Origin: a virus
Strand: one strand, 5' to 3'
IMG/VR virus record: IMGVR_UViG_3300032287_004341
Location: 1 to 24,533 of that record
Length of the DNA stretch: 24,533 bases
Positions within the stretch are counted from its first letter, which is position 1; each line of letters starts with the position of its first letter. Position numbers and translations under genes: made by a program. Positions 1,575 to 24,533 of this stretch are shown here, piece by piece. The notes beneath the pieces were generated by a model. That model saw only the letters and a list, made by a program, of their open reading frames with translations. It searched no databases and was not told where the DNA came from.

Positions 1575-4500
1575 TATGCTCTTGCAACCCCGTATCCTTT
1601 AGAAGGTTGAGTATAGACTGAGGTGTCTACCGTCTCAAGAAACTTCTCTCCGTATGAATTTGCTGCTTCTCTTATCATTCCAATGATATTTCCACGCTGT
1701 CTTGTTAGTACTTCTTCTACTCCTGCAGCATCAAGTGCGCTGATGGAGATATTAACATTTTGTGCAGGTGCGGCGTTTACTTTGTCCGCTGGAACTATTC
1801 TACCAGGTAGTTTTGGTACGAATAGTTCGGGGCCTTGTTCGCCAACCATATATCCCGCGTTTACGCGGCCGCCTGCTGCTCTTGAACCGATAAAGGCTGG
1901 ACGAAAGTTTTCTGCGCCTCCCATACCTTTATCGCCTTGTAAATAACCAAGTTCACCAGAAGCTGACTGTGATTTAGCTAAATCAATTGTGCTTTTTCTC
2001 TGGCCTACTGATACTGTAGTTGGAGCTGTGGCACTCACTGATCCGCCTCCGCCCTCATAAGACATGCCAGAAATTATTGCTAATTGCGCGGCTCCGAGCC
2101 CAATAATCATTGCGCCCAGTGCAGGTCCAAGTAACGGTCCTAACCCTGTTGGGGGAGGGGCGAAAGCTGCCATTGCAGCTGCAGCGGTGTTAATAATAGT
2201 TGTAGCCATCATCATTTTTTTGTTTGTTTCAAAAGCCTTTCTTTTTGCGGATTCTTTCTTTTTCTCCATCGCGGCTATTTTAGCTAAACTTTCTTTGGAT
2301 TTTCCGTCGCGCTGCTTTTCTGCGTTAATTTCCGCATCAATACCAGAAATTTTTGCAGAACTTGCCGCATTAATTACGGAAGCTACTGAAGAGACTATGG
2401 AGCCAACTAAAGCCATTTTATCCGCGGCAGTTTTCCCAGATTCTGCAAATTTTGTCATACTATCGGCCATTACAAGAGTTCCAGAAGCAATAGAAGCTAC
2501 TAATTCTCCTTGAGGACCAAGACCTTTTAAGCTTTCAATAAAGGGTGCTAAAGCTACGGAAGCTGCGGAAATACCGGCCTTCATATTAGCAAAAGGATCT
2601 TCCCCGGCTGCAATAGCGTCTCTTTGAGCTCTTAACTCTTTTAACTTATCGCTCATAGCACTAAACTGGCTCATATCAATAACATCTGAGTCAAGAAGTT
2701 TGCTTCTTTCAGCCTCTACTTGTTTCATTTGTTCGCTAACAGCGCCAACTTGATCTTGAATAGCGCCTCTCGCAGCCATACCTATAGATTCGCCATATTT
2801 TTTAGTATCAAATATTTGTCCCGCTTCTGGCAATATTGTTTGCAGTGTCGCAGTTACAATTATGTTTCTATCCTTTATCAATTTAGAAGCGTCTAGATCT
2901 GAAATTGCTACTGCAGTTTCAGATCTTATTTGATCTTTTGCCAGTGCCGCCAATTCAGGAATCTTAGCTATAGCATCCGATAAGCCTTTTTCTATCCCAG
3001 AAGTCGCAGTGCTATTTAATTCAGCTATGGCACTATTTGCAGAAGTAATAATATTATCTAATTGTGCCTGTACTTGAGGGTCTTTATTTTCAGGTTTTGC
3101 TTTTTCAAGTATAGCATCCTGTTTTCTGCCTTCGGCCTCTTTACGGAGAGCATCTAGCCTACTACTGATCTCATATTTTTGAAAGATCATCTGTGCCTTT
3201 AACAGCGCAAATTCAAGATCAATCATATTTAGCTTTCTTGTCTCTTCTTCTTTTATTAATGCTGATCTTTTATTAGCATAATCTATTTCGAGATCTAGAG
3301 TCTGCTGAGCGGTTAATTCATACTTACCATTTTCTCTTAGATTTATAGCTTTTAACTCATTCTCGGTAACTCTTCTCTGGTTGTCAAGAATGCTGGTTCT
3401 TGCAGAATTAATTCTACTATAAATATCGTCTATAGTCTGAGCAGCGTCAAGAATTTGATTTGAGACATCTACTGCAATAGAGTAAGTTCTCTCTACATTC
3501 TGTCTTTGCTTTTCTAGTATTGATACTTCTACTTCTGCTTTTTGCCTATCCTTTTCTCTAGCTGCTAGAGCTTGTTCTAGAGCTGCTACCGCACCTGCAA
3601 TATCCCCACCAGAAGATTTTTGAATTTCAGCAAGAACATCCTTTAACGCCTGTATTTCTTCAGTTGAAAGCACTGATATACTTTGAACTTCACCGGCTGC
3701 TTGAGCCGCTCCAGCAGCAATACCTGCACTAACTCCAGCTTCCGTAGTGCCTGCAATAGCTCTAAAATATTCATTGCTTGTAACAGCACTTAAAACGCTT
3801 TGTAAAATATTTCCAGCACCTGACTGCTGGGCAGCGGCTGGGGCTGGGGCGGGGGCTGGTGCACTGACCACTATCCCAGGCTTATTAGCTTTGGATTCCT
3901 CACTCTTTATTAAAACTTGTAATTCAGCGGCGGTTACAGCTAACTTAGCACGAGTAATTTTTTCTTCGAGAGCAATTGTCCTTGATTTAAGTTGATACTC
4001 TCTATCAATATTAGCCTGTTTTTCAGCTTCAAATTCTTTTAGTACTCTTAACTGGCTAGATACATCTATTTCTCCAGTGCCCCCAGCTCTTAAATCAGCT
4101 ATTCGTAATTCAAGCATCATTAAGCTTTCACTAGCGTCAGTAATAGAAGAATATAAGCCAGCTTGCTTTTGCAAAAGCGAAACAACTTCTTGTTGCAGCC
4201 TTACTTCCTCTTCTATGTTTTTAAGAGTATTTTTCGCTAAATTTATTGATCTATCTCTTTCAGCAATGGCTGTATCGGCTGTTAATTTTGCATTTTGACT
4301 TGTAAGATTATTTATAGCTCCCTGTATTTTTACCATGTTCATGGTATTTTCTTGGGTAGCACCAGAAATAGCTTCGGTCTGCCTTGCCGCGCCCAAAGAC
4401 TGTTCAAGTTCCATGATTTGTAGATTATTAGACTGTACCTGAAGACTATTAAGTTCCTTCTGCTTATTAATTCTATACTCTAATTGAGAGTTACTTAATA

Positions 4501-7303
4501 ATACATATTGGCTTTGTTTTGCAGTTTCTGTATTCAGTTCAGCTTGTGCTTTTGCAGTATTTTGCATTATTGCAAAAATTTGACCATAATTATATATAGC
4601 CTGTTTAACTCTTTTATCAATTATTTCAGAAATTTTAAGCTGCTGTTCTAGAGCCTTAGCAAATTCATTATCCTGCTCAGATAACTTTTTTACTTTTGCA
4701 GCTACAGCGTCTAACTGTTCCTTCATGGCACCGGAACCATATTTCTTCTCTAAAAGAGGTATTTGGTCTTTTGGTTTTAAGTTTTTATTAATTTCTTCGA
4801 TCTTTGCATTTGCTTGTGACAGTACTTCGTCATTTCCGCCAAATGCTCCTGCCCAAAATCCAATGTCTTCTTTTAATTTTGGAAAGCCTTCAATTATGCC
4901 AGAAAAGCTCTCGGCTTTTTTCGCAGTTTCGCTGAATTGTGTTGCTAGCGTAGCAAGTCCAAGAACTGCTAATCCTTGCTGTCCAAAGTTATCTATAATA
5001 GCTTTTGTTTTAGTAAACTGATTTCCAGCTTTAGCAGAATCCTCTGCTAATGACTTTTCTGCTTTTCCTAAATTTATAAATGAATCAATAAGCGAGTCTA
5101 ATGGAGTCGAAGTAGTGAGAGTATTAAAATATTTTGTTAACTGATCGCCAGTTTCTTTTATGGCAGCGTTATAAGCATTCTGAGAAGTTATAGCTTTATT
5201 TTGCTCTTTTAAAAACTCCTGCAAAAACTTTGCTCTTTGCTGGTCAGATAAAGTGCCTATGTCCTTTCCTTTCAGCTCTACTTTTATTCTCTCTTGAAAA
5301 GACTTTTTTAGGGCGTCGTTTGAATTTATAAAATCTTCTGTACTGCTAATTAAATCTCCATAATCTCCGGCATCCGCGGCAGTAGCAAGAGTCTTATTAA
5401 ATTCTGCACTCGCAGAAGATACTATATTAAATTGTGCGGTTACTGCTTGAGTCTGAGTTGTAATAGACGCGGAAACTCCAGTAAATCCCTTATTCACTTC
5501 TTTAGAATTATCTTTTAATTCTGTAAATGTCTCGGTAAGTTTTGATACCTGCTCTTCGTATTTCTTTGTAGCGTCGGACTTAAATAAATTAAATACATAC
5601 TCAAGACCTACTATAAGTAAATCTACGACAAATAAAAGCTGACCGATTACTGGAATTGCAGTAAAAATACCTTTTATTGCTACTTTTGCAGCTAACCCAA
5701 ACGATTGGAAAGCTATTGAGGCTCTTCCTAACCCTTCCCCAATTAATGGTAATCTACCAGCAAATCCTGCTGCTGCGGCTTCATTTCCCCGCATATTAGC
5801 GCGGAATCTGGCTCCGGCAGCTAAAGATTTTGTCATCTGTTTTCTATAGTTTTCAAACGTAGGTGTGGCGTCTAAGCTAGATAAAATATCTGCACTTCTT
5901 AAGGCTAATCTTCCTTGTGCTCTTGCGACACCTGCGGGTATGCCAGGACCACCTGCAAAAGTTCCAGCTTTTCTTTGCTGTTCTACTTTTATTATTTCTT
6001 GAATTTTTGCTTTTTCTTCGTTAAGTTGATTTATTCTTGCTTGAGCAGCTTCTTTATCCTTTGTGCTAGCTCTAAGTAGTGCTCTTTGCCTATTCTCAAT
6101 TGAAGCGACTAAATCTTTCTCTATTTTTTGCCAGTCTTGTAAACTTCTTGCGTTTTGTATATTTAAATTATACTGTTTTCCAAAAGCGCCGAAACTAGAT
6201 TTTAAAGTAGCGAGTTGTGATTTTTTTGCGGCTACGTCTTTTTTTGCAGCTTTTTCAGATGCCTCAGCTACTCCTGAAAGCTTTCCAGCAAATTTAGCTG
6301 TTTCTGCGGCCATCATAGATAAAACTGGCAAAGCAGTCTTAATTAGGCCTCCAGAAAGCATAGCAATTAACCCGCCAAGAGCAAGTGTATTTTCTGCTAA
6401 GAAATTAGCTATTGGAGCTAATATGACATTAAATGCGTTTAGTACGGTTGTAGCTAGTTCTTGAAGTTTTGCGCTTAATTTATCATATGGGTTAGCGTCG
6501 ACGCTTGCGCCTATTGCACCAAATTTTTGTTCTCCTTCGGCGAGAACAGCATTCATAAATGCTTGGCGCTTTTCAAAGTTTGTTAACTGAGAGGCTGTCT
6601 TTCCCATCTCTTTCGCATACATTTCTGTAGCTTCATCAATACGAACCATAATACCAAGTTCGTCAAGAAGTTCTGGCTCTAATTTTGTAGCGCCTTTTAC
6701 AAGTCTATTCATAGAATCCTGTAAATCTCTTCCCAAAGCTACGCTAGTATTTTTAGCTACAATACCAAGCCTCTCTATAACCGCTGGGTCAAATCCAGCC
6801 GAAGTTACCATAGCAACCTGTCTCATTGAGTCCTGAAGGCTTATGGCATACCCAGTAGCTTCTTGTAGACCTTTTGACAAAGAGCCCATCGCCAGACCGC
6901 TAGCATTACCAAGAGCAGCTAATCCCTGAGTTAGCTGCTCTACCTGAGCAGCTTTTTGCAGAGCACCAAAAGCCGCAGTAGCGGCGAATAAGTTTGCGGC
7001 AAGAGTTGCGTATGCACCAACAAGACCAGAAGAACTACCCCCGATCACGTCCCGCATTTTTGAGAAATTCTTGGCTCCTGCGCCCGCAGTACCCGCAGCA
7101 CCTTTTAACCCACGATCAAAATGACCATGAGCGTCTCCAGCGTTTCTTGCTGCTTGAGCATTTTGATTGGCGGCTCTTGTATTTTTAGCCTGAGCACTTG
7201 TATTTTCATTGACAGCATCAGTCACTCGTTCAACATCACGCTGAACGACTTTAACATTTTTACCTTCTACAACTACTTCTAAAAGTACACTACCGTCAGC
7301 CAT
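1574..7303 (-). CDS. tail tape measure protein
   Basis: At 1909 residues this is by far the largest gene. It begins with a charged, Gln/Asn/Ala-rich helix, has hydrophobic segments near residues 300-338 and 544-574, and contains long coiled-coil stretches over roughly 850-1100 and 1200-1500. An alternating Pro-Ala linker lies near residue 1148. A hydrophobic Ala/Gly-rich region near 1694-1748 is followed by the GYMVGEQGPELFVP box near 1825 that is typical of tape-measure C-termini. In the family this protein sets tail length, is assembled with the chaperone encoded just upstream, and is thought to help DNA cross the cell envelope. By the usual rule of about 1.5 angstroms per residue, the tail would be long, roughly 280 nm (inference). 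The start overlaps the chaperone stop by one base. Confidence 0.96.
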   Translation of the reverse strand: MADGSVLLEVVVEGKNVKVVQRDVERVTDAVNENTSAQAKNTRAANQNAQAARNAGDAHGHFDRGLKGAAGTAGAGAKNFSKMRDVIGGSSSGLVGAYATLAANLFAATAAFGALQKAAQVEQLTQGLAALGNASGLAMGSLSKGLQEATGYAISLQDSMRQVAMVTSAGFDPAVIERLGIVAKNTSVALGRDLQDSMNRLVKGATKLEPELLDELGIMVRIDEATEMYAKEMGKTASQLTNFEKRQAFMNAVLAEGEQKFGAIGASVDANPYDKLSAKLQELATTVLNAFNVILAPIANFLAENTLALGGLIAMLSGGLIKTALPVLSMMAAETAKFAGKLSGVAEASEKAAKKDVAAKKSQLATLKSSFGAFGKQYNLNIQNARSLQDWQKIEKDLVASIENRQRALLRASTKDKEAAQARINQLNEEKAKIQEIIKVEQQRKAGTFAGGPGIPAGVARAQGRLALRSADILSSLDATPTFENYRKQMTKSLAAGARFRANMRGNEAAAAGFAGRLPLIGEGLGRASIAFQSFGLAAKVAIKGIFTAIPVIGQLLFVVDLLIVGLEYVFNLFKSDATKKYEEQVSKLTETFTELKDNSKEVNKGFTGVSASITTQTQAVTAQFNIVSSASAEFNKTLATAADAGDYGDLISSTEDFINSNDALKKSFQERIKVELKGKDIGTLSDQQRAKFLQEFLKEQNKAITSQNAYNAAIKETGDQLTKYFNTLTTSTPLDSLIDSFINLGKAEKSLAEDSAKAGNQFTKTKAIIDNFGQQGLAVLGLATLATQFSETAKKAESFSGIIEGFPKLKEDIGFWAGAFGGNDEVLSQANAKIEEINKNLKPKDQIPLLEKKYGSGAMKEQLDAVAAKVKKLSEQDNEFAKALEQQLKISEIIDKRVKQAIYNYGQIFAIMQNTAKAQAELNTETAKQSQYVLLSNSQLEYRINKQKELNSLQVQSNNLQIMELEQSLGAARQTEAISGATQENTMNMVKIQGAINNLTSQNAKLTADTAIAERDRSINLAKNTLKNIEEEVRLQQEVVSLLQKQAGLYSSITDASESLMMLELRIADLRAGGTGEIDVSSQLRVLKEFEAEKQANIDREYQLKSRTIALEEKITRAKLAVTAAELQVLIKSEESKANKPGIVVSAPAPAPAPAAAQQSGAGNILQSVLSAVTSNEYFRAIAGTTEAGVSAGIAAGAAQAAGEVQSISVLSTEEIQALKDVLAEIQKSSGGDIAGAVAALEQALAAREKDRQKAEVEVSILEKQRQNVERTYSIAVDVSNQILDAAQTIDDIYSRINSARTSILDNQRRVTENELKAINLRENGKYELTAQQTLDLEIDYANKRSALIKEEETRKLNMIDLEFALLKAQMIFQKYEISSRLDALRKEAEGRKQDAILEKAKPENKDPQVQAQLDNIITSANSAIAELNSTATSGIEKGLSDAIAKIPELAALAKDQIRSETAVAISDLDASKLIKDRNIIVTATLQTILPEAGQIFDTKKYGESIGMAARGAIQDQVGAVSEQMKQVEAERSKLLDSDVIDMSQFSAMSDKLKELRAQRDAIAAGEDPFANMKAGISAASVALAPFIESLKGLGPQGELVASIASGTLVMADSMTKFAESGKTAADKMALVGSIVSSVASVINAASSAKISGIDAEINAEKQRDGKSKESLAKIAAMEKKKESAKRKAFETNKKMMMATTIINTAAAAMAAFAPPPTGLGPLLGPALGAMIIGLGAAQLAIISGMSYEGGGGSVSATAPTTVSVGQRKSTIDLAKSQSASGELGYLQGDKGMGGAENFRPAFIGSRAAGGRVNAGYMVGEQGPELFVPKLPGRIVPADKVNAAPAQNVNISISALDAAGVEEVLTRQRGNIIGMIREAANSYGEKFLETVDTSVYTQPSKGYGVARA

Positions 7304-9109: not shown

Positions 9110-10294
9110 TTAGGCCTTATAAATAATAGTTGCCTCGTCTGTATTATCGACGTTACCATTAGCTACCTGACCGTGGAAGTTAATTTCCAAAGTAAGCAAG
9201 TCGTCTACACCAATTGTTGGAATCTCGACGTGCGCTGTAGGGAGGTCTAACTCTATACGTGGGCCAGTAGTGCCCCCAATGAATACAGACATATCAAAAG
9301 AGTTTCTAACTGTACTCGTATCGGCTAATTGGTCAATAAATAGCTCACTTGATGCTGTGGAAGTATCGTCGTAGTAACAAGTTAAACTACCACTTATGCT
9401 ACGAGTTCCAGTGATATTACCAATCGGCTGATTGACAACACCTAATTGTTCAGGTATCAAATAGCTGATATTGTTTTCTACAGTAAACGAACCACCTGTA
9501 AGAATTACACTGTAATCATCGGAAGTAGAGCTTCTTTGCAGAGTAACAGTTGATAGACGATTACGAATAAAGTTTGATGTATCCGCAACTCCAACTGTAA
9601 CAACAGAAGCCGTAGGTGAACCCGAAGTGGTCCAGCTTGGTGCGGTAGTAGTCGATAAGCTTGTAGCAAACCCGCTCCACTGAGCCGTAGCAATTCCTTC
9701 GATATCAAAATCAATAGTTACCGAATTTACAACAGCATCTGTTAGCTTAAAGTACTCTACGTTACTACCGCCGCCATCAACGAACGCAAACCAGATATTA
9801 TTACCAGCACCAAAATAAGAAGTATTTGACCCGCTAAAGTCAAAAGTATTTGCTCCTGCAACTTGTGTGCCGCTATTTATAGCTTGAAAAGGCGTCGGAG
9901 ACGCTAATGGCGAAATCATCGGGGATGGACTACCTCCAGTAGCGCTAGAGCCTTGAGCAATCGTACTGCCAAACTGTTTAGTAGTACTGTAATAGGCGTT
10001 TGCACCCATCAACATTGCCCAAAGTGCTTGTTCTGGAGCAACAACAGCGCCTCCACTACTTATTGGGCGTATATATGTGCTGCAACTCCACTCTACTGGA
10101 GCTAAAGAATCATTAAACAACAGTCTTGCTCTTCTAGAAGCTACTCCAGCTTCATTTACTGTTACTTCCGAAGAGTTCATGCTCTGAGAGAACGAAAAAC
10201 CAGCTAAAACAGGGATTTGAAATATTGAATTTGTGGGGGACCCGGAAGTCATCTCCACATATACTTTTGCGTTTCTTTGAAATTGTAATGCCAT
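9110..10294 (-). CDS. major tail tube protein
   Basis: I place the start at the ATG at 10292-10294, preceded by GGAG with an eight-base gap; the GTG further upstream at 10321 has no ribosome site. The 394-residue product is Ser/Thr/Gly-rich and beta-strand-like throughout. It opens with ALQFQRNAKVYVEM, has a SFSQSMNSSEVTVNEAG segment near residue 35, and a C-terminal region that reads like an extra immunoglobulin-type domain. It lies directly after the tail-terminator-like gene and before the chaperone and tape measure, the usual place of the tube subunit. The product would be one of the most abundant virion proteins. No lipid, membrane or catalytic motif is seen. Confidence 0.85.
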   Translation of the reverse strand: MALQFQRNAKVYVEMTSGSPTNSIFQIPVLAGFSFSQSMNSSEVTVNEAGVASRRARLLFNDSLAPVEWSCSTYIRPISSGGAVVAPEQALWAMLMGANAYYSTTKQFGSTIAQGSSATGGSPSPMISPLASPTPFQAINSGTQVAGANTFDFSGSNTSYFGAGNNIWFAFVDGGGSNVEYFKLTDAVVNSVTIDFDIEGIATAQWSGFATSLSTTTAPSWTTSGSPTASVVTVGVADTSNFIRNRLSTVTLQRSSTSDDYSVILTGGSFTVENNISYLIPEQLGVVNQPIGNITGTRSISGSLTCYYDDTSTASSELFIDQLADTSTVRNSFDMSVFIGGTTGPRIELDLPTAHVEIPTIGVDDLLTLEINFHGQVANGNVDNTDEATIIYKA

Positions 10295-21901: not shown

Positions 21902-22349
21902 TTATTTTTACTCTCGACAGTACTGAATCCTCAATCGGTATATTTTGCCATCCAAATAAATTATTTCCACTAATATAGTTCAGAGAAGTAGGCCACTCAA
22001 GATACTTCACATTCCAGCGATTCTCACTCTTCAGCCAGGAAAACTCTTCATCCGCAATTCTTCGAATATAGTTCTGTGAGCGAAAAGACGGATGAATCGC
22101 AATGGCTAGAATAGTAAGTGTTTGTTTTGGGCGTACTACTCGCTGTGAAACCCACAAAATGCGATTGCCGTCATTATCGGATGCAATTCGAGACATTTTA
22201 AAGCGATCGTCATTTTCGTTTAAATCTTGATTCAGTGAAATTGCAAGCGATGCGTTTGCATACGTTGTATCTGTAATGGCTTCTGTGAGCCATTTTCTAT
22301 CATCTTCGGTGCTAAAATGCCATGTGAAGTTTGGTCCAAGCCTATTCAT
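21879..22349 (-). CDS. GNAT-like acetyltransferase fold protein
   Basis: The 156-residue protein has a central block LTILAIAIHPSFRSQNYIRR (about residues 77-97), followed by a helix and a LEWPTSLNY strand. This is the beta4-loop-alpha3 region of GNAT enzymes, where R-x-x-x-(G/Y) binds acetyl-CoA. The usual Q/R-x-x-G-x-G/A box is degenerate here (R-S-Q-N-Y-I), so activity is doubtful. Stand-alone GNAT-like genes are found beside fibre genes in several phages, perhaps modifying virion or host proteins. The start overlaps the HExxH lipoprotein gene by 8 nt, with GGAAGG upstream. Confidence 0.7.
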   Translation of the reverse strand: MNRLGPNFTWHFSTEDDRKWLTEAITDTTYANASLAISLNQDLNENDDRFKMSRIASDNDGNRILWVSQRVVRPKQTLTILAIAIHPSFRSQNYIRRIADEEFSWLKSENRWNVKYLEWPTSLNYISGNNLFGWQNIPIEDSVLSRVKINDLIILQ

Positions 22350-22650
22350 GAAACCTTCCCCAAATACAATGGGATATTTCGTGGCCGATAAACTCTGGCT
22401 GATAGGCGACTAGCGGATCTCGCACATGAATAGTGCATTCATTTCCACGAAGTACGCCCCACGCATGAACTTCGGCGGTCACGCCGCGGGCTTTTGCTGC
22501 GGCGTTGAGCTCTTCGTCAGTGGCATACGTTTGAATATGCACTGTAATGGTAGGGTGATTCGTCTCCTTTTTGGCAAATGTAAAGCCGTCGTCTCCCTGC
22601 TTCGAGCAGGATGAGACTAGAAAAAGAAGAGGGAGAAGATACTTTACCAT
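22342..22650 (-). CDS. small lipoprotein with HExxH metalloprotease-like motif
   Basis: The 102-residue protein has an N-terminal signal (KYLLPLLFLVSSC) with lipobox V-S-S-C, so Cys15 would be lipidated after cleavage, as in Gram-negative export. Near the C-terminus is HEISH (residues 90-94) with a third His at 101, a zinc-binding HExxH core like that of metallopeptidases. The mature part is only about 87 residues, so it is a minimal protease domain or an inactive relative. Possible roles are cell-wall or envelope work late in infection, or superinfection exclusion. None can be chosen from sequence. Confidence 0.78.
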   Translation of the reverse strand: MVKYLLPLLFLVSSCSKQGDDGFTFAKKETNHPTITVHIQTYATDEELNAAAKARGVTAEVHAWGVLRGNECTIHVRDPLVAYQPEFIGHEISHCIWGRFHE

Positions 22651-22934
22651 TTTACTTTGTTCGCCCAGTATGCCGCGGAAAGCTTTCCCTTGGCGATGTT
22701 TTTTGCATGACGCGCTTTGAACGATCTACGACGAGCTGCGTACGATTTGCTTTCGCCTTTCTTTTTTGGCGAACCCTTCACACCTTGTTGACCAAATCGA
22801 ATCGTCTTGACTTTTTTGCCTGACTTCGCTACAACAATATGTGATTTTTTTGGATGGTTCGGCGTTCTCTTTGGCTTGTTGTAGCCTGATACGCCCGCTC
22901 TTCGAAGACGGCTATCCTTCTTTTTCTTCGGCAT
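22644..22934 (-). CDS. very basic small protein, first late gene
   Basis: A 96-residue protein of which about one third is Lys or Arg. It starts PKKKKDSRLRRAG, contains KSHIVVAKSGKKVKTIRFGQ near residues 30-50 and ends SFKARHAKNIAKGKLSAAYW plus a few residues. This C-terminal pattern looks like a family I have seen in many tailed phages with no known function. Charge suggests nucleic-acid binding, for example DNA condensation during packaging (inference). AAGGA lies about eight bases upstream of ATG, and it is the first gene after the strong promoter near 23000. Confidence 0.82.
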   Translation of the reverse strand: MPKKKKDSRLRRAGVSGYNKPKRTPNHPKKSHIVVAKSGKKVKTIRFGQQGVKGSPKKKGESKSYAARRRSFKARHAKNIAKGKLSAAYWANKVKW

Positions 22935-22979
22935 GGGGAAGTTCCTTCATGCTGTGCTCGAGTGTGGAGCAATGGGAAT

Positions 22980-23008
22980 AGTATAAACTGGAGTGAACTA
23001 AAAGTCAA
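22980..23008 (-). promoter_or_regulatory. sigma70-type late promoter, start of late block
   Basis: The -35 is TTGACT (23003-23008) and the -10 is TATACT (22980-22985), spacer 17, with an AAAAATTTTT tract just upstream that could act as an UP element. It should drive the whole minus-strand late block. Confidence 0.85.
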
Positions 23009-23138
23009 GGAAAAATTTTTGGGAGGGTTTGAGTTGTTTGTTAAGCGCCTTTTAGTTGGAAAAATACCCAAAGTTGCGCGTGAAGACGTGCGCCCGGGTG
23101 TGTGAATATTACAAGTCTCCGAACCGCCCCACCCCACC

Positions 23139-23154
23139 TGGCACGCCTTGTGCA
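23139..23154 (+). promoter_or_regulatory. sigma54-like -24/-12 site
   Basis: TGGCACG-CCTT-GTGCA: GG and GC are 12 bases apart as required and only one base differs from the TTGCA half. It could alternatively be part of a repeated operator box, since CCTGGCAC recurs three more times. Confidence 0.45.
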
Positions 23155-23165
23155 TGTTCAAAACC

Positions 23166-23172
23166 TGGCACG
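23166..23172 (+). repeat. AAAACCTGGCACG box without a -12 element
   Basis: The box matches the other copies, but 12 bases downstream of GG there is TC, not GC, so this one does not look like a working sigma54 promoter. It argues that the box may be a binding site in its own right. Confidence 0.5.
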
Positions 23173-23205
23173 AAAATTTCCGTGATGAAATGGTAATATG
23201 CACAC

Positions 23206-23234
23206 TTGCATTCGACCTAGGTCTAGCCCATACT
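23206..23234 (+). promoter_or_regulatory. sigma70-type early promoter with operator-like palindrome
   Basis: TTGCAT (23206-23211), 17-base spacer, CATACT (23229-23234). The spacer contains a perfect palindrome GACCTAGGTC at 23214-23223, the classic place for a repressor to block polymerase. Confidence 0.75.
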
Positions 23235-23260
23235 GTGCCCATCACATAGAGGAACACGAC

Positions 23261-23572
23261 ATGCCCAAGATCACTCAAGCCCAACAGTTTCTTTACATGC
23301 CTGCAATGGTAGAATACAACGCATGCTGCGCTGGATGCGGTAGCCCGCTCGATCTGGAATATGACCACGTTATTCCGCGCTGCAAAGGCGGCTCCGATCA
23401 TGTTTCCAACATTCAGATTCTTTGCGGCCATTGCAACAAGCACAAAGGTGTGCTGGCAAATTTCCCACGTGTTGCCCCCCGTAGCCCGGAGTATGACTGC
23501 CGGGCCATCATGGCAAACCGTAAGGAATTTGTTTACGGTTTGAGAATGTGGAAAAAGACCATTGTATCTTGA
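23261..23572 (+). CDS. HNH endonuclease
   Basis: The 103-residue protein starts at the ATG at 23261, with GAGGA seven bases upstream; longer readings start inside the promoter. C23-x2-C26, then DHVIPRCKGGSDHVSN (Asp35, His36, Asn50) and LCGHCNKHKG (C55, C58) form a textbook zinc-stabilised HNH nuclease domain. In small phage genomes such genes are homing nucleases, host-DNA cutters or packaging helpers. It lies far from the terminase and on the other strand, so a mobile or early host-takeover role is more likely than packaging. It is more G+C-rich than the late genes. Confidence 0.9.
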   Translation: MPKITQAQQFLYMPAMVEYNACCAGCGSPLDLEYDHVIPRCKGGSDHVSNIQILCGHCNKHKGVLANFPRVAPRSPEYDCRAIMANRKEFVYGLRMWKKTIVS

Positions 23573-23590
23573 TTCGATTCACCCTATACT
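23562..23590 (+). promoter_or_regulatory. sigma70-type early promoter
   Basis: TTGTAT (23562-23567), 17-base spacer, TATACT (23585-23590). Its -35 overlaps the last codons of the HNH gene. The 27-base leader to the next ATG is like that of the other plus-strand cassettes. Confidence 0.7.
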
Positions 23591-23617
23591 TCCCCCACCT
23601 AAACAGGAAACGCAAAC

Positions 23618-23839
23618 ATGAACGCAGAACAAATCCTCGACGTACTCAAGACCGGCGTATACTTCGTCACGTTCGCAAAAGACAATGGCGAAACCCGCAT
23701 GGTAAAAGGATCGGCTCCAGCAGATGCTTTCATTCGCACAGATGGTATCGTTCCGATTGTGGAACATGGCACGGGCGCATGGAAATCCTTTCGCGCATCT
23801 GCCATGCTCACCATCGTGTCTGAAAACCTTGTAGCCTAA
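23618..23839 (+). CDS. SH3-barrel / WYL_2-like (DUF2693-type) small protein
   Basis: The 73-residue protein has the pattern LKTGVYFVTFAKDNGETRMVKG, an acidic middle, and GAWKSFRASAMLTI at the end, which matches the small SH3-barrel proteins (DUF2693/WYL_2) common in phage early regions. Their job is unknown; WYL relatives bind ligands or nucleic acids and often regulate. AGGAAA lies seven bases before the ATG. The stop codon is part of the ribosome site of the next small frame, so both are probably co-translated. Confidence 0.8.
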   Translation: MNAEQILDVLKTGVYFVTFAKDNGETRMVKGSAPADAFIRTDGIVPIVEHGTGAWKSFRASAMLTIVSENLVA

Positions 23840-23849
23840 GGAATACACC

Positions 23850-23972
23850 ATGAACAATTGCAAATCGTATCGGCAATACCTTGCACTGGTACTCGGGCAG
23901 AAACAGCGGCAGCGGCCTGCACAATTCTGGGCCGTACCGTCCAGCAAAAAAGGCGGTAAAATTGCCGCTTGA
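23850..23972 (+). CDS. 40-residue small protein, coupled to preceding gene
   Basis: ATG at 23850 is preceded by AAGGA with a seven-base gap, and the site overlaps the previous stop, so the frame looks real despite its length. The product (MNNCKSYRQYLALVLGQKQR and on, ending KKGGKIAA) is basic and Gln/Arg-rich, with a short amphipathic helix. No family is recognised. Its stop overlaps the TTGATC hexamer of the 71-bp repeat. Confidence 0.55.
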   Translation: MNNCKSYRQYLALVLGQKQRQRPAQFWAVPSSKKGGKIAA

Positions 23973-24035
23973 TCTTAGGCCGGGCCGTATGTCATAATGG
24001 TGGCAACGGCCAGGGCCGCGCCGAAAACCTGGCAC
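23965..24035 (+). repeat. 71-bp promoter/hairpin/box repeat, copy 1
   Basis: It aligns without gaps to 24463-24533 with about 51 of 71 positions equal. It contains CCGCTTGA, TATGTCATA, a CGGC-loop-GCCG hairpin and the invariant block GCCGCGCCGAAAACCTGG. Identity is concentrated in these blocks while the bases between them vary freely, which points to selection on a regulatory element. Confidence 0.8.
23969..23998 (+). promoter_or_regulatory. sigma70-like promoter within 71-bp repeat, copy 1
   Basis: TTGATC (23969-23974), 18-base spacer, CATAAT (23993-23998). The same layout is kept in copy 2. Confidence 0.55.
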
Positions 24036-24045
24036 GCTTATTGCA
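24030..24045 (+). promoter_or_regulatory. perfect sigma54 consensus site
   Basis: TGGCACG-CTTA-TTGCA matches the -24/-12 consensus at every conserved base, with GG and GC 12 bases apart. It begins in the end of the 71-bp repeat. A near-palindrome GACCTAGGGC follows at 24052-24061. No activator gene or upstream enhancer is visible. Confidence 0.55.
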
Positions 24046-24156
24046 TAGGTTGACCTAGGGCCGAGATGCGAATGATTCCTGTTTAGGCCTGGGTCGCGCC
24101 GATTTTACCACAATAGCTTACGGGCTGTCAACACAAAAGAATGTGAGATATTACCA

Positions 24157-24185
24157 TTGCAATCCTAGTCTGGCCGCTCTATACT
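24157..24185 (+). promoter_or_regulatory. sigma70-type early promoter
   Basis: TTGCAA (24157-24162), 17-base spacer, TATACT (24180-24185). The spacer keeps a CCTAGTCTGGCC string resembling the CCTAGGTCTAGCC of the promoter at 23206. Confidence 0.78.
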
Positions 24186-24212
24186 GCGCTCACCAACTAA
24201 GGAAACAGAGAC

Positions 24213-24410
24213 ATGACCTATATCGAAATCGTTCTGAACAAACTGCCGAAAGGCTTCCCCACTACTGGCCGTTGCGAGGATCTGCTTCGCAACGCATGGG
24301 AAATCAGCATTGCCGAATTCGGCAAAAAACAGACCACCTGGCTCTTTCATGTAAACGAAGATTTTCAGGATGAATTGGTTACCGCATACGCAGAAGCCGC
24401 GAAGGTTTGA
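24213..24410 (+). CDS. small acidic protein, unknown
   Basis: This 65-residue protein has AAGGAA eight bases before the ATG and its own promoter, followed by a strong terminator, so it forms a complete single-gene unit. It starts TYIEIVLNKLPKGFPTTGRC, has a helix (EDLLRNAWEISIAEFGK) and an acidic C-terminal helix (NEDFQDELVTAYAEAAK). There is no recognisable domain. Compact phage proteins of this kind are often inhibitors of host functions, but nothing in the sequence points to a target. Confidence 0.78.
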   Translation: MTYIEIVLNKLPKGFPTTGRCEDLLRNAWEISIAEFGKKQTTWLFHVNEDFQDELVTAYAEAAKV

Positions 24411-24428
24411 AGGAACCATGCCAGGAAG

Positions 24429-24452
24429 GCCTGCTGAAAAGCGGGCTTTTTT
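24429..24452 (+). terminator. rho-independent terminator
   Basis: GCCTGCT pairs with AGCGGGC (one G-T wobble) over a GAAA loop, followed by TTTTTT. It closes the single-gene unit at 24213-24410. Confidence 0.88.
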
Positions 24453-24462
24453 GTGCATATTA

Positions 24463-24533
24463 CCGCTTGACAGACCGCCAAGCGATATGTCATACTATAG
24501 CTAACGGCTGAAGCCGCGCCGAAAACCTGGCAC
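24463..24533 (+). repeat. 71-bp promoter/hairpin/box repeat, copy 2 (window edge)
   Basis: This is the second copy of the element at 23965-24035, ending exactly at the window edge within the TGGCAC box. The hairpin here is CGGC-TGAA-GCCG against CGGC-CAGG-GCCG in copy 1: the stem is kept and the loop changes. Whether it continues into a TTGCA half cannot be seen. Confidence 0.8.
24467..24496 (+). promoter_or_regulatory. sigma70-like promoter within 71-bp repeat, copy 2
   Basis: TTGACA (24467-24472), 18-base spacer, CATACT (24491-24496). It stands directly after the terminator at 24429-24452, as expected for the start of the next unit outside the window. Confidence 0.62.

Follow-up and report, generated by a model that had tools for sequence, protein, structure and literature searches.

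A composite control element that occurs twice between small plus-strand genes of one virus raises the question of what acts on it: does it work as RNA, at the 5' end of new transcripts, or as DNA, and in the latter case which proteins would be expected to bind it? The window examined here is the whole of a 24,533-bp virus record, and the terminase that it encodes is 49% identical to the terminases of Vibrio T5-like phages. Its tail, head, portal and terminase genes all lie on the minus strand, and a divergent non-coding gap separates this structural operon from a block of small plus-strand genes led by an HNH endonuclease gene (Table 1), whose relatives were too distant for an informative comparison. 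The G+C content of the small-gene side (positions 22001–24533) is 0.46–0.50, versus mostly 0.33–0.44 in the structural operon.

The repeat and the sites adjoining copy 1

The two copies align without gaps at 72% identity over 75 nt and form the best direct repeat in the window. Each contains, as the first-pass annotation had proposed, a sigma70-type promoter with an 18-nt spacer (9/12 in copy 1 and 10/12 in copy 2) and an invariant block downstream of it. That block proved to be 21 nt long (GCCGCGCCGAAAACCTGGCAC), a little longer than claimed; chance would yield about 1e-4 exact repeats of this length in 24.5 kb (∼3e8 position pairs divided by 4^21). The length of 71 bp originally assigned to the element turned out to be an artefact. 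Copy 2 runs to the very end of the contig (24533) and stops there with the last of the 21 shared bases, so that it does not reveal the length of the element. The assembly probably broke at the repeat, giving a contig end at copy 2.

Table 1. Positions of genes, promoters and sequence motifs around the repeat (window coordinates unless another record is named).
Feature	Position	Strand	Remarks
Divergent non-coding gap between structural operon (−) and small genes (+)	22935–23260	.	
Sigma54-type site, one mismatch	23139–23154	+	Exact in G001 (28915)
Second, degenerate TGGCACG site, two mismatches	23166–23181	+	27 nt downstream of the 23139 site
Box GGTAATATTACC-N2-TTG	23190–23205, 24146–24160, 24457–24470; in L131: 8969, 9906, 10347, 15332, 16788		
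Small HNH endonuclease gene	23261–23572	+	First of the plus-strand block
Small genes after the HNH gene	23618–23839, 23850–23972	+	
Copy 1 (sigma70-type promoter, dyad, invariant block)	23961–24035	+	Repeat search; G001 identity
Copy-1 sigma70-type promoter, TTGATC-18-CATAAT	23969–23998	+	TG before −10; −10 region conserved in G001
Copy-1 dyad, CGGCC-AG-GGCCG (CGGCCAGGGCCG)	24007–24018	.	Predicted +1 to +12
21-nt block (GCCGCGCCGAAAACCTGGCAC)	24015–24035, 24513–24533	+	Identical in both copies and G001
Exact sigma54-type −24/−12 site, TGGCACG-CTTA-TTGCA (TGGCACGCTTATTGCA)	24030–24045	+	Identical in G001 at 29980
CCTAGG	24054–24059	.	At predicted sigma54 start; precedes palindrome in five direct G001 copies
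Fur-box-like palindrome (GATGCGAATGATTCCTGTT)	24065–24083	.	Degraded, 5 mismatches; G001 counterparts 0–4
Convergent sigma70-type promoter, TTGACA-18-TAAAAT, 11/12	24102–24131	−	Hexamers conserved in G001
Sigma70-type promoter of the 24213–24410 gene, TTGCAA-17-TATACT	24157–24185	+	
65-aa gene 3' of copy 1	24213–24410	+	No family match
Copy 2	24459–24533	+	Cut off by contig end
Copy-2 sigma70-type promoter, TTGACA-18-CATACT	24467–24496	+	
Copy-2 dyad, CGGCT-GA-AGCCG (CGGCTGAAGCCG)	24505–24516		

The block in copy 1 ends in TGGCAC, and these six bases form the −24 part of a perfect sigma54-type site. This site possesses the TGGCAC-N5-TTGC core at the right spacing, with Y before and W after it, and in core, spacing and flank preferences alike it matches the sigma54 (RpoN) −24/−12 promoter (YTGGCACGN4TTGCW). 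It differs from such a promoter in lying just 3' of a promoter of the sigma70 type. Beyond it are found CCTAGG, a palindrome resembling the 19-bp Fur box (AATGANAATNATTNTCATT) and a convergent sigma70-type promoter. The window palindrome has five mismatches to the Fur 19-mer and is not significant alone, as shuffled sequences yield 4.5 such matches per window. Transcription is predicted to start at about 24005 (rightward) and 24095 (leftward) from the two sigma70-type promoters, which places the sigma54-type site at about +25; both promoters, that site, CCTAGG and the palindrome all fall within a conserved stretch of ∼170 bp. Tandem TGGCACG sites, as in the divergent gap, are also present at 28-nt spacing in a further record (L073).

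A search of relatives for further copies identified homologous copies in one of them, G001 (IMGVR_UViG_3300032288_005212, 106 kb). Around the element the window and G001 are ∼84% identical overall, and a run of ∼64 consecutive bases, from just 5' of the −10 to the −12 of the sigma54-type site, is the same in both. Conservation continues past the −12 to include CCTAGG, the palindrome and both minus-strand promoter hexamers, while the promoter spacers and flanks have diverged.

The two kinds of site have the patterns TGGCAYRN4TTGCW (sigma54 type) and GAATNATTC (palindrome). G001 contains four exact matches to the former, all within an 8-kb block of genes (28.9–36.9 kb), compared with 0–1 in whole-genome shuffles, and the gaps of that same block hold seven Fur-type palindromes with 0–4 mismatches. 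Five of the seven come after CCTAGG, within a 46-nt direct repeat family, and the distance from sigma54-type site to palindrome is 40–41 nt in the window and G001 copies. Neither DnaA nor LexA boxes were found in the window or G001, and no sigma54 activator AAA+ domain (PF00158) was found in G001. One gene of the G001 small-gene block is homologous to dmp, which is pre-early in T5 (31% identity); tblastn searches with the A1/A2 proteins of T5, Vibrio X1 and 70E37.1 gave no match in either the window or G001. Having a dmp-like gene but no A1/A2, the block thus resembles a first-step region.

Recurrence of the motifs in other phages and in T5-like islands

Scanning IMG/VR for co-occurrence of the two cores gave 120 context clusters. 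In 64 of these, the bases around the palindrome core complete a Fur-type 19-mer (6 or more of the 10 flanking bases matching), against 2% expected per site, and positions that had played no part in the search follow the sigma54 consensus: among 99 non-redundant sites near a Fur-type palindrome, Y precedes TGG in 84%, R occupies +7 in 74% and W follows TTGC in 87%. Position 5 of the palindrome is often mismatched. Compensating flanks in one contig (L303) had hinted at a longer stem at the palindrome, in RNA or as a cruciform, and this idea was discarded: beyond the core, complementarity at 61 non-redundant sites equalled that of shuffled pairs. With no pairing past the core and mismatches tolerated at position 5, the palindrome appears to behave as a protein site and not as a stem.

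The phages that carry both motifs have terminases of different families, and the order, spacing and orientation of the motifs vary among them, with tandem and inverted arrays both occurring. A fixed sigma54-to-Fur spacing was also considered and abandoned, as wider scans gave distances from −38 to +74 nt, and only 55 of 89 sigma54-type sites have a co-oriented gene ahead. Such variability weakens a strict promoter–operator reading, and keeps open those in which the sites serve as decoys or as roadblocks. In these same regions, perfect DnaA boxes occur at 6 loci out of 35 (0 expected) and NtrC-type palindromes at 4 out of 35 (0.4 expected); no phage Fur gene was found in 14 records, and Fur would have to come from the host. 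These data suggest that the early or non-coding regions of lytic phages from several families contain sites for master regulators of the host. Arrays of sigma54 or Fur sites in phages were not described in the open-licence literature that we searched; the T5 palindromes may already have been interpreted as Fur and LexA boxes in the classic T5 papers, which lie outside that literature.

Several loci in this collection have features of their own. NtrC-type palindromes (TGCACCAnnnTGGTGCA or near variants) lie by sigma54-type sites in L159, L171, L183, L241 and L340, and the palindromes AGGGTTTACCCT and AGTGAGCGCTCACT are found in the same kind of regions there. The contig L303 (12.6 kb; rc 2662–6195) has four units in which a Fur-type palindrome is followed by TGGCACG, all with the same 31-nt spacing; three of the four are behind a sigma70-like −10, and they mostly face opposite-strand ORFs. 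The E. coli phages tuntematon and anhysbys and the Pectobacterium phage phiTE (L199, L200 and L201) each have a non-coding region of ∼1 kb in which three to four Fur-type boxes follow one another with a spacing of 29 nt; in the E. coli pair these are annotated as repeat_region only. A T5-like relative (L039) carries a TonB-dependent receptor gene (181–2325; plug and barrel, Pfam) directly 3' of a Fur-type palindrome (L039:11–29); T5-like kin use such receptors, and a phage-encoded one is unusual. Most of the 26 exact matches to GCCGAAAACCTGGCAC were coding or due to chance, with L004 the only homologue, and composite matches in genomic contigs likewise had the look of chance.

In T5 itself (AY543070), Fur-type palindromes at 9552–9709 lie inside the annotated injection stop signal (9140–10149), which also contains one box each for LexA (CTGTATAAATATACAG, at 9411) and DnaA (at 9518). 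Further such sites occupy the divergent pre-early gap (Fur-type at 6098, DnaA at 6121 and 6194, LexA at 6213). Similar islands are present in Klebsiella Sealy, Serratia Kamaji and Vibrio X1, 70E37.1 and Thalassa, with sigma54-type sites confined to Vibrio and marine genomes and none in the enterobacterial T5-like phages. We assessed the enrichment of 36 host motifs in the pre-early or equivalent non-coding islands of seven T5-like genomes, including G001 (Vibrio D51, in which many tiny ORFs are called where annotated gaps would be expected, was left out; its sites were counted as ‘elsewhere’). Four motifs exceeded the shuffled expectation by a wide margin (Fur, 29 versus 0.1; DnaA, 23–24 versus 0.4; LexA, 15 versus 0.5; sigma54, 12–13 versus 0), and the remaining 32 were near expectation save for a small excess of MetJ (5 versus 0.25). 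NtrC-type enhancers were not found in the T5-like islands and were seen in some unrelated phages (L159 and L183).

Judged by its sequence, the element may be a variant of these pre-early and stop-signal islands. The stop signal and pre-early region of T5 are alike in being non-coding islands with Fur-type palindromes, and the Vibrio relatives have sigma54-type sites as well. T5 differs in that it has boxes for DnaA and LexA but lacks a sigma54 site, whereas in the window and G001 the only sites are of the sigma54 and Fur types and no A1/A2 gene was found; moreover, the T5 stop signal takes up an extensive non-coding stretch where the first-step DNA ends, whereas the gaps in G001 are short, spread out and devoid of DnaA boxes. 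Repeats in the T5 stop signal (GTGTGCAAATCCGACA; L355:9750–10000) resemble others in Vibrio X1 (TAGAATCCGCACTCACA; L352:5633–6600) and correspond to no recognised host motif.

Candidate functions of the element

The reading that we favor, tentatively, is that the repeat is part of a docking site for host regulators on the DNA, which would gate transcription of the early region. The identity of the sites is well supported by sequence, and their function we infer. The putative docking site would lie in the small-gene block next to the structural operon of a T5-like phage, and the element combines sigma70 promoters of an ordinary kind with an unusual clustering of sites for host regulators. The first-pass annotation had also suggested a DNA box bound by a phage regulator; action on DNA is indeed favored, but the proteins whose sites match (sigma54 holoenzyme and Fur) belong to the host.

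Iron-loaded Fur generally acts as a repressor, and sigma54 holoenzyme remains in a stable closed complex until an activator arrives; LexA and DnaA, for their part, occupy their boxes in all host cells. In the proposed mechanism, host sigma54 holoenzyme would park at the −24/−12 site as a closed complex and Fur would bind the palindrome; situated between convergent sigma70 promoters, the bound proteins would repress or gate both until the state of the host or phage replication changes. Alternatively, an activator might fire the sigma54 site. Productive sigma54 transcription would be host-dependent, because no activator domain was found in G001 and no NtrC-type enhancer in the T5-like islands. 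The phage sites also depart from known sigma54 promoters in being often tandem or inverted, with neither an activator gene nor an enhancer in G001. The Fur-type palindromes of G001 and many other phages are within 0–4 mismatches of the Fur box; the window copy, by comparison, is degraded, and it lies on phage DNA. A parallel is reported for phages of Alphaproteobacteria, in which CtrA sites of host type place phage genes under a host master regulator (PMC9437464). Those phages involve another regulator and other hosts, whereas here several host regulators share one island.

By analogy, such islands in T5 and its close relatives, including the stop signal, might also act as a roadblock, made of bound protein, against entry of the DNA. 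How T5 DNA entry is halted when the first step is complete has been a question ever since the sequence of the stop signal was determined in 1987 (as cited in PMC13250531). The signal contains repeats, inverted repeats, palindromes and DnaA boxes and is thought to fold or to contact host components, by a mechanism that is poorly understood (PMC13250531). The close Fur and LexA matches among the T5 palindromes attach named host proteins to this old question, and the sigma54-type sites in islands of marine relatives add a further one. Fur, DnaA, LexA and sigma54 holoenzyme, bound to the first-entering DNA, might then pause transfer, with the window element a part of that gate. We regard this as unlikely. 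It would account for the Fur-type palindromes and DnaA and LexA boxes inside the stop signal, agrees with the description in PMC13250531 of its palindromes and DnaA boxes as thought to fold or bind host components, and fits islands of like content in the Klebsiella, Serratia and Vibrio relatives; but the second motif island is mid-way in the T5 first-step DNA, away from the stop point, and in the window and G001 there is neither a DnaA nor a LexA box, nor any A1/A2 match. It is unlikely, too, that occupancy of islands on the first-entering DNA by Fur, LexA, DnaA and, in marine lineages, sigma54 both halts entry and sets early transcription. If it did, infection would read the iron, SOS, replication and nitrogen state of the host before committing.

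Besides docking of host regulators, we considered that the motifs might be sites of a conserved phage protein, or replication-origin iterons, that merely resemble host boxes. The tandem spacings (18, 27–28 and 43 bp) and inverted pairs are iteron-like, and DnaA boxes share the islands. Against this stand four unrelated motifs that are each close to a host consensus, unselected positions included, and their occurrence in phages with unrelated terminases. This reading, too, is unlikely.

Slightly more doubtful still is that the sites are decoys, which after phage replication would titrate host regulators and so derepress iron-uptake and SOS genes or limit initiation of host replication. Arrays in both orientations, tandem or inverted and with no fixed link to a gene in several phages, would suit this purpose, as would the rows of three to four Fur-type boxes in tuntematon, anhysbys and phiTE. 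There are, however, only a handful of sites per genome and few before replication, and those of the window and G001 are ∼1 kb apart beside promoters and not in one array.

That the element is an RNA leader, in which a 5' hairpin and the box would act on RNA polymerase as HK022 put does, was the first suggestion made for it and now seems very improbable. Its placement at the 5' end of the transcript is like that of the put leader RNA, with a dyad (CGGC-NNNN-GCCG) at the predicted 5' end of both transcripts, as first described; the inner pair of the arms changes compensatorily between copies (T.A swapped for C.G, in the only two variants known). The hairpin itself, however, is missing from the minimum-free-energy fold of copy 1, which pairs GGCCAGG with CCUGGC. 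Neither leader folds more stably than its shuffles (z = 0.02 in copy 1, −1.66 in copy 2), no Rfam family scored above threshold, and the box is the −24 part of a −24/−12 site that recurs elsewhere in tandem and in inverted pairs. Recurrence in both orientations disfavors this reading, since an RNA leader would not tolerate it. By eye, a terminator-like hairpin with a T run is visible just upstream of copy 2 (24428–24452), where the program called no terminator and there is a weak, sub-threshold match to Trp_leader.

Plain duplicated sigma70 promoters of no added function would explain why a similar ATTACC-N2-TTG promoter stands at every small plus-strand gene in the block, but have next to no likelihood given perfect conservation of ∼64 nt extending beyond the promoter and composite motifs that recur in unrelated phages. 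The box GGTAATATTACC-N2-TTG abuts the −35 of almost all small-gene promoters, and is possibly a separate operator.
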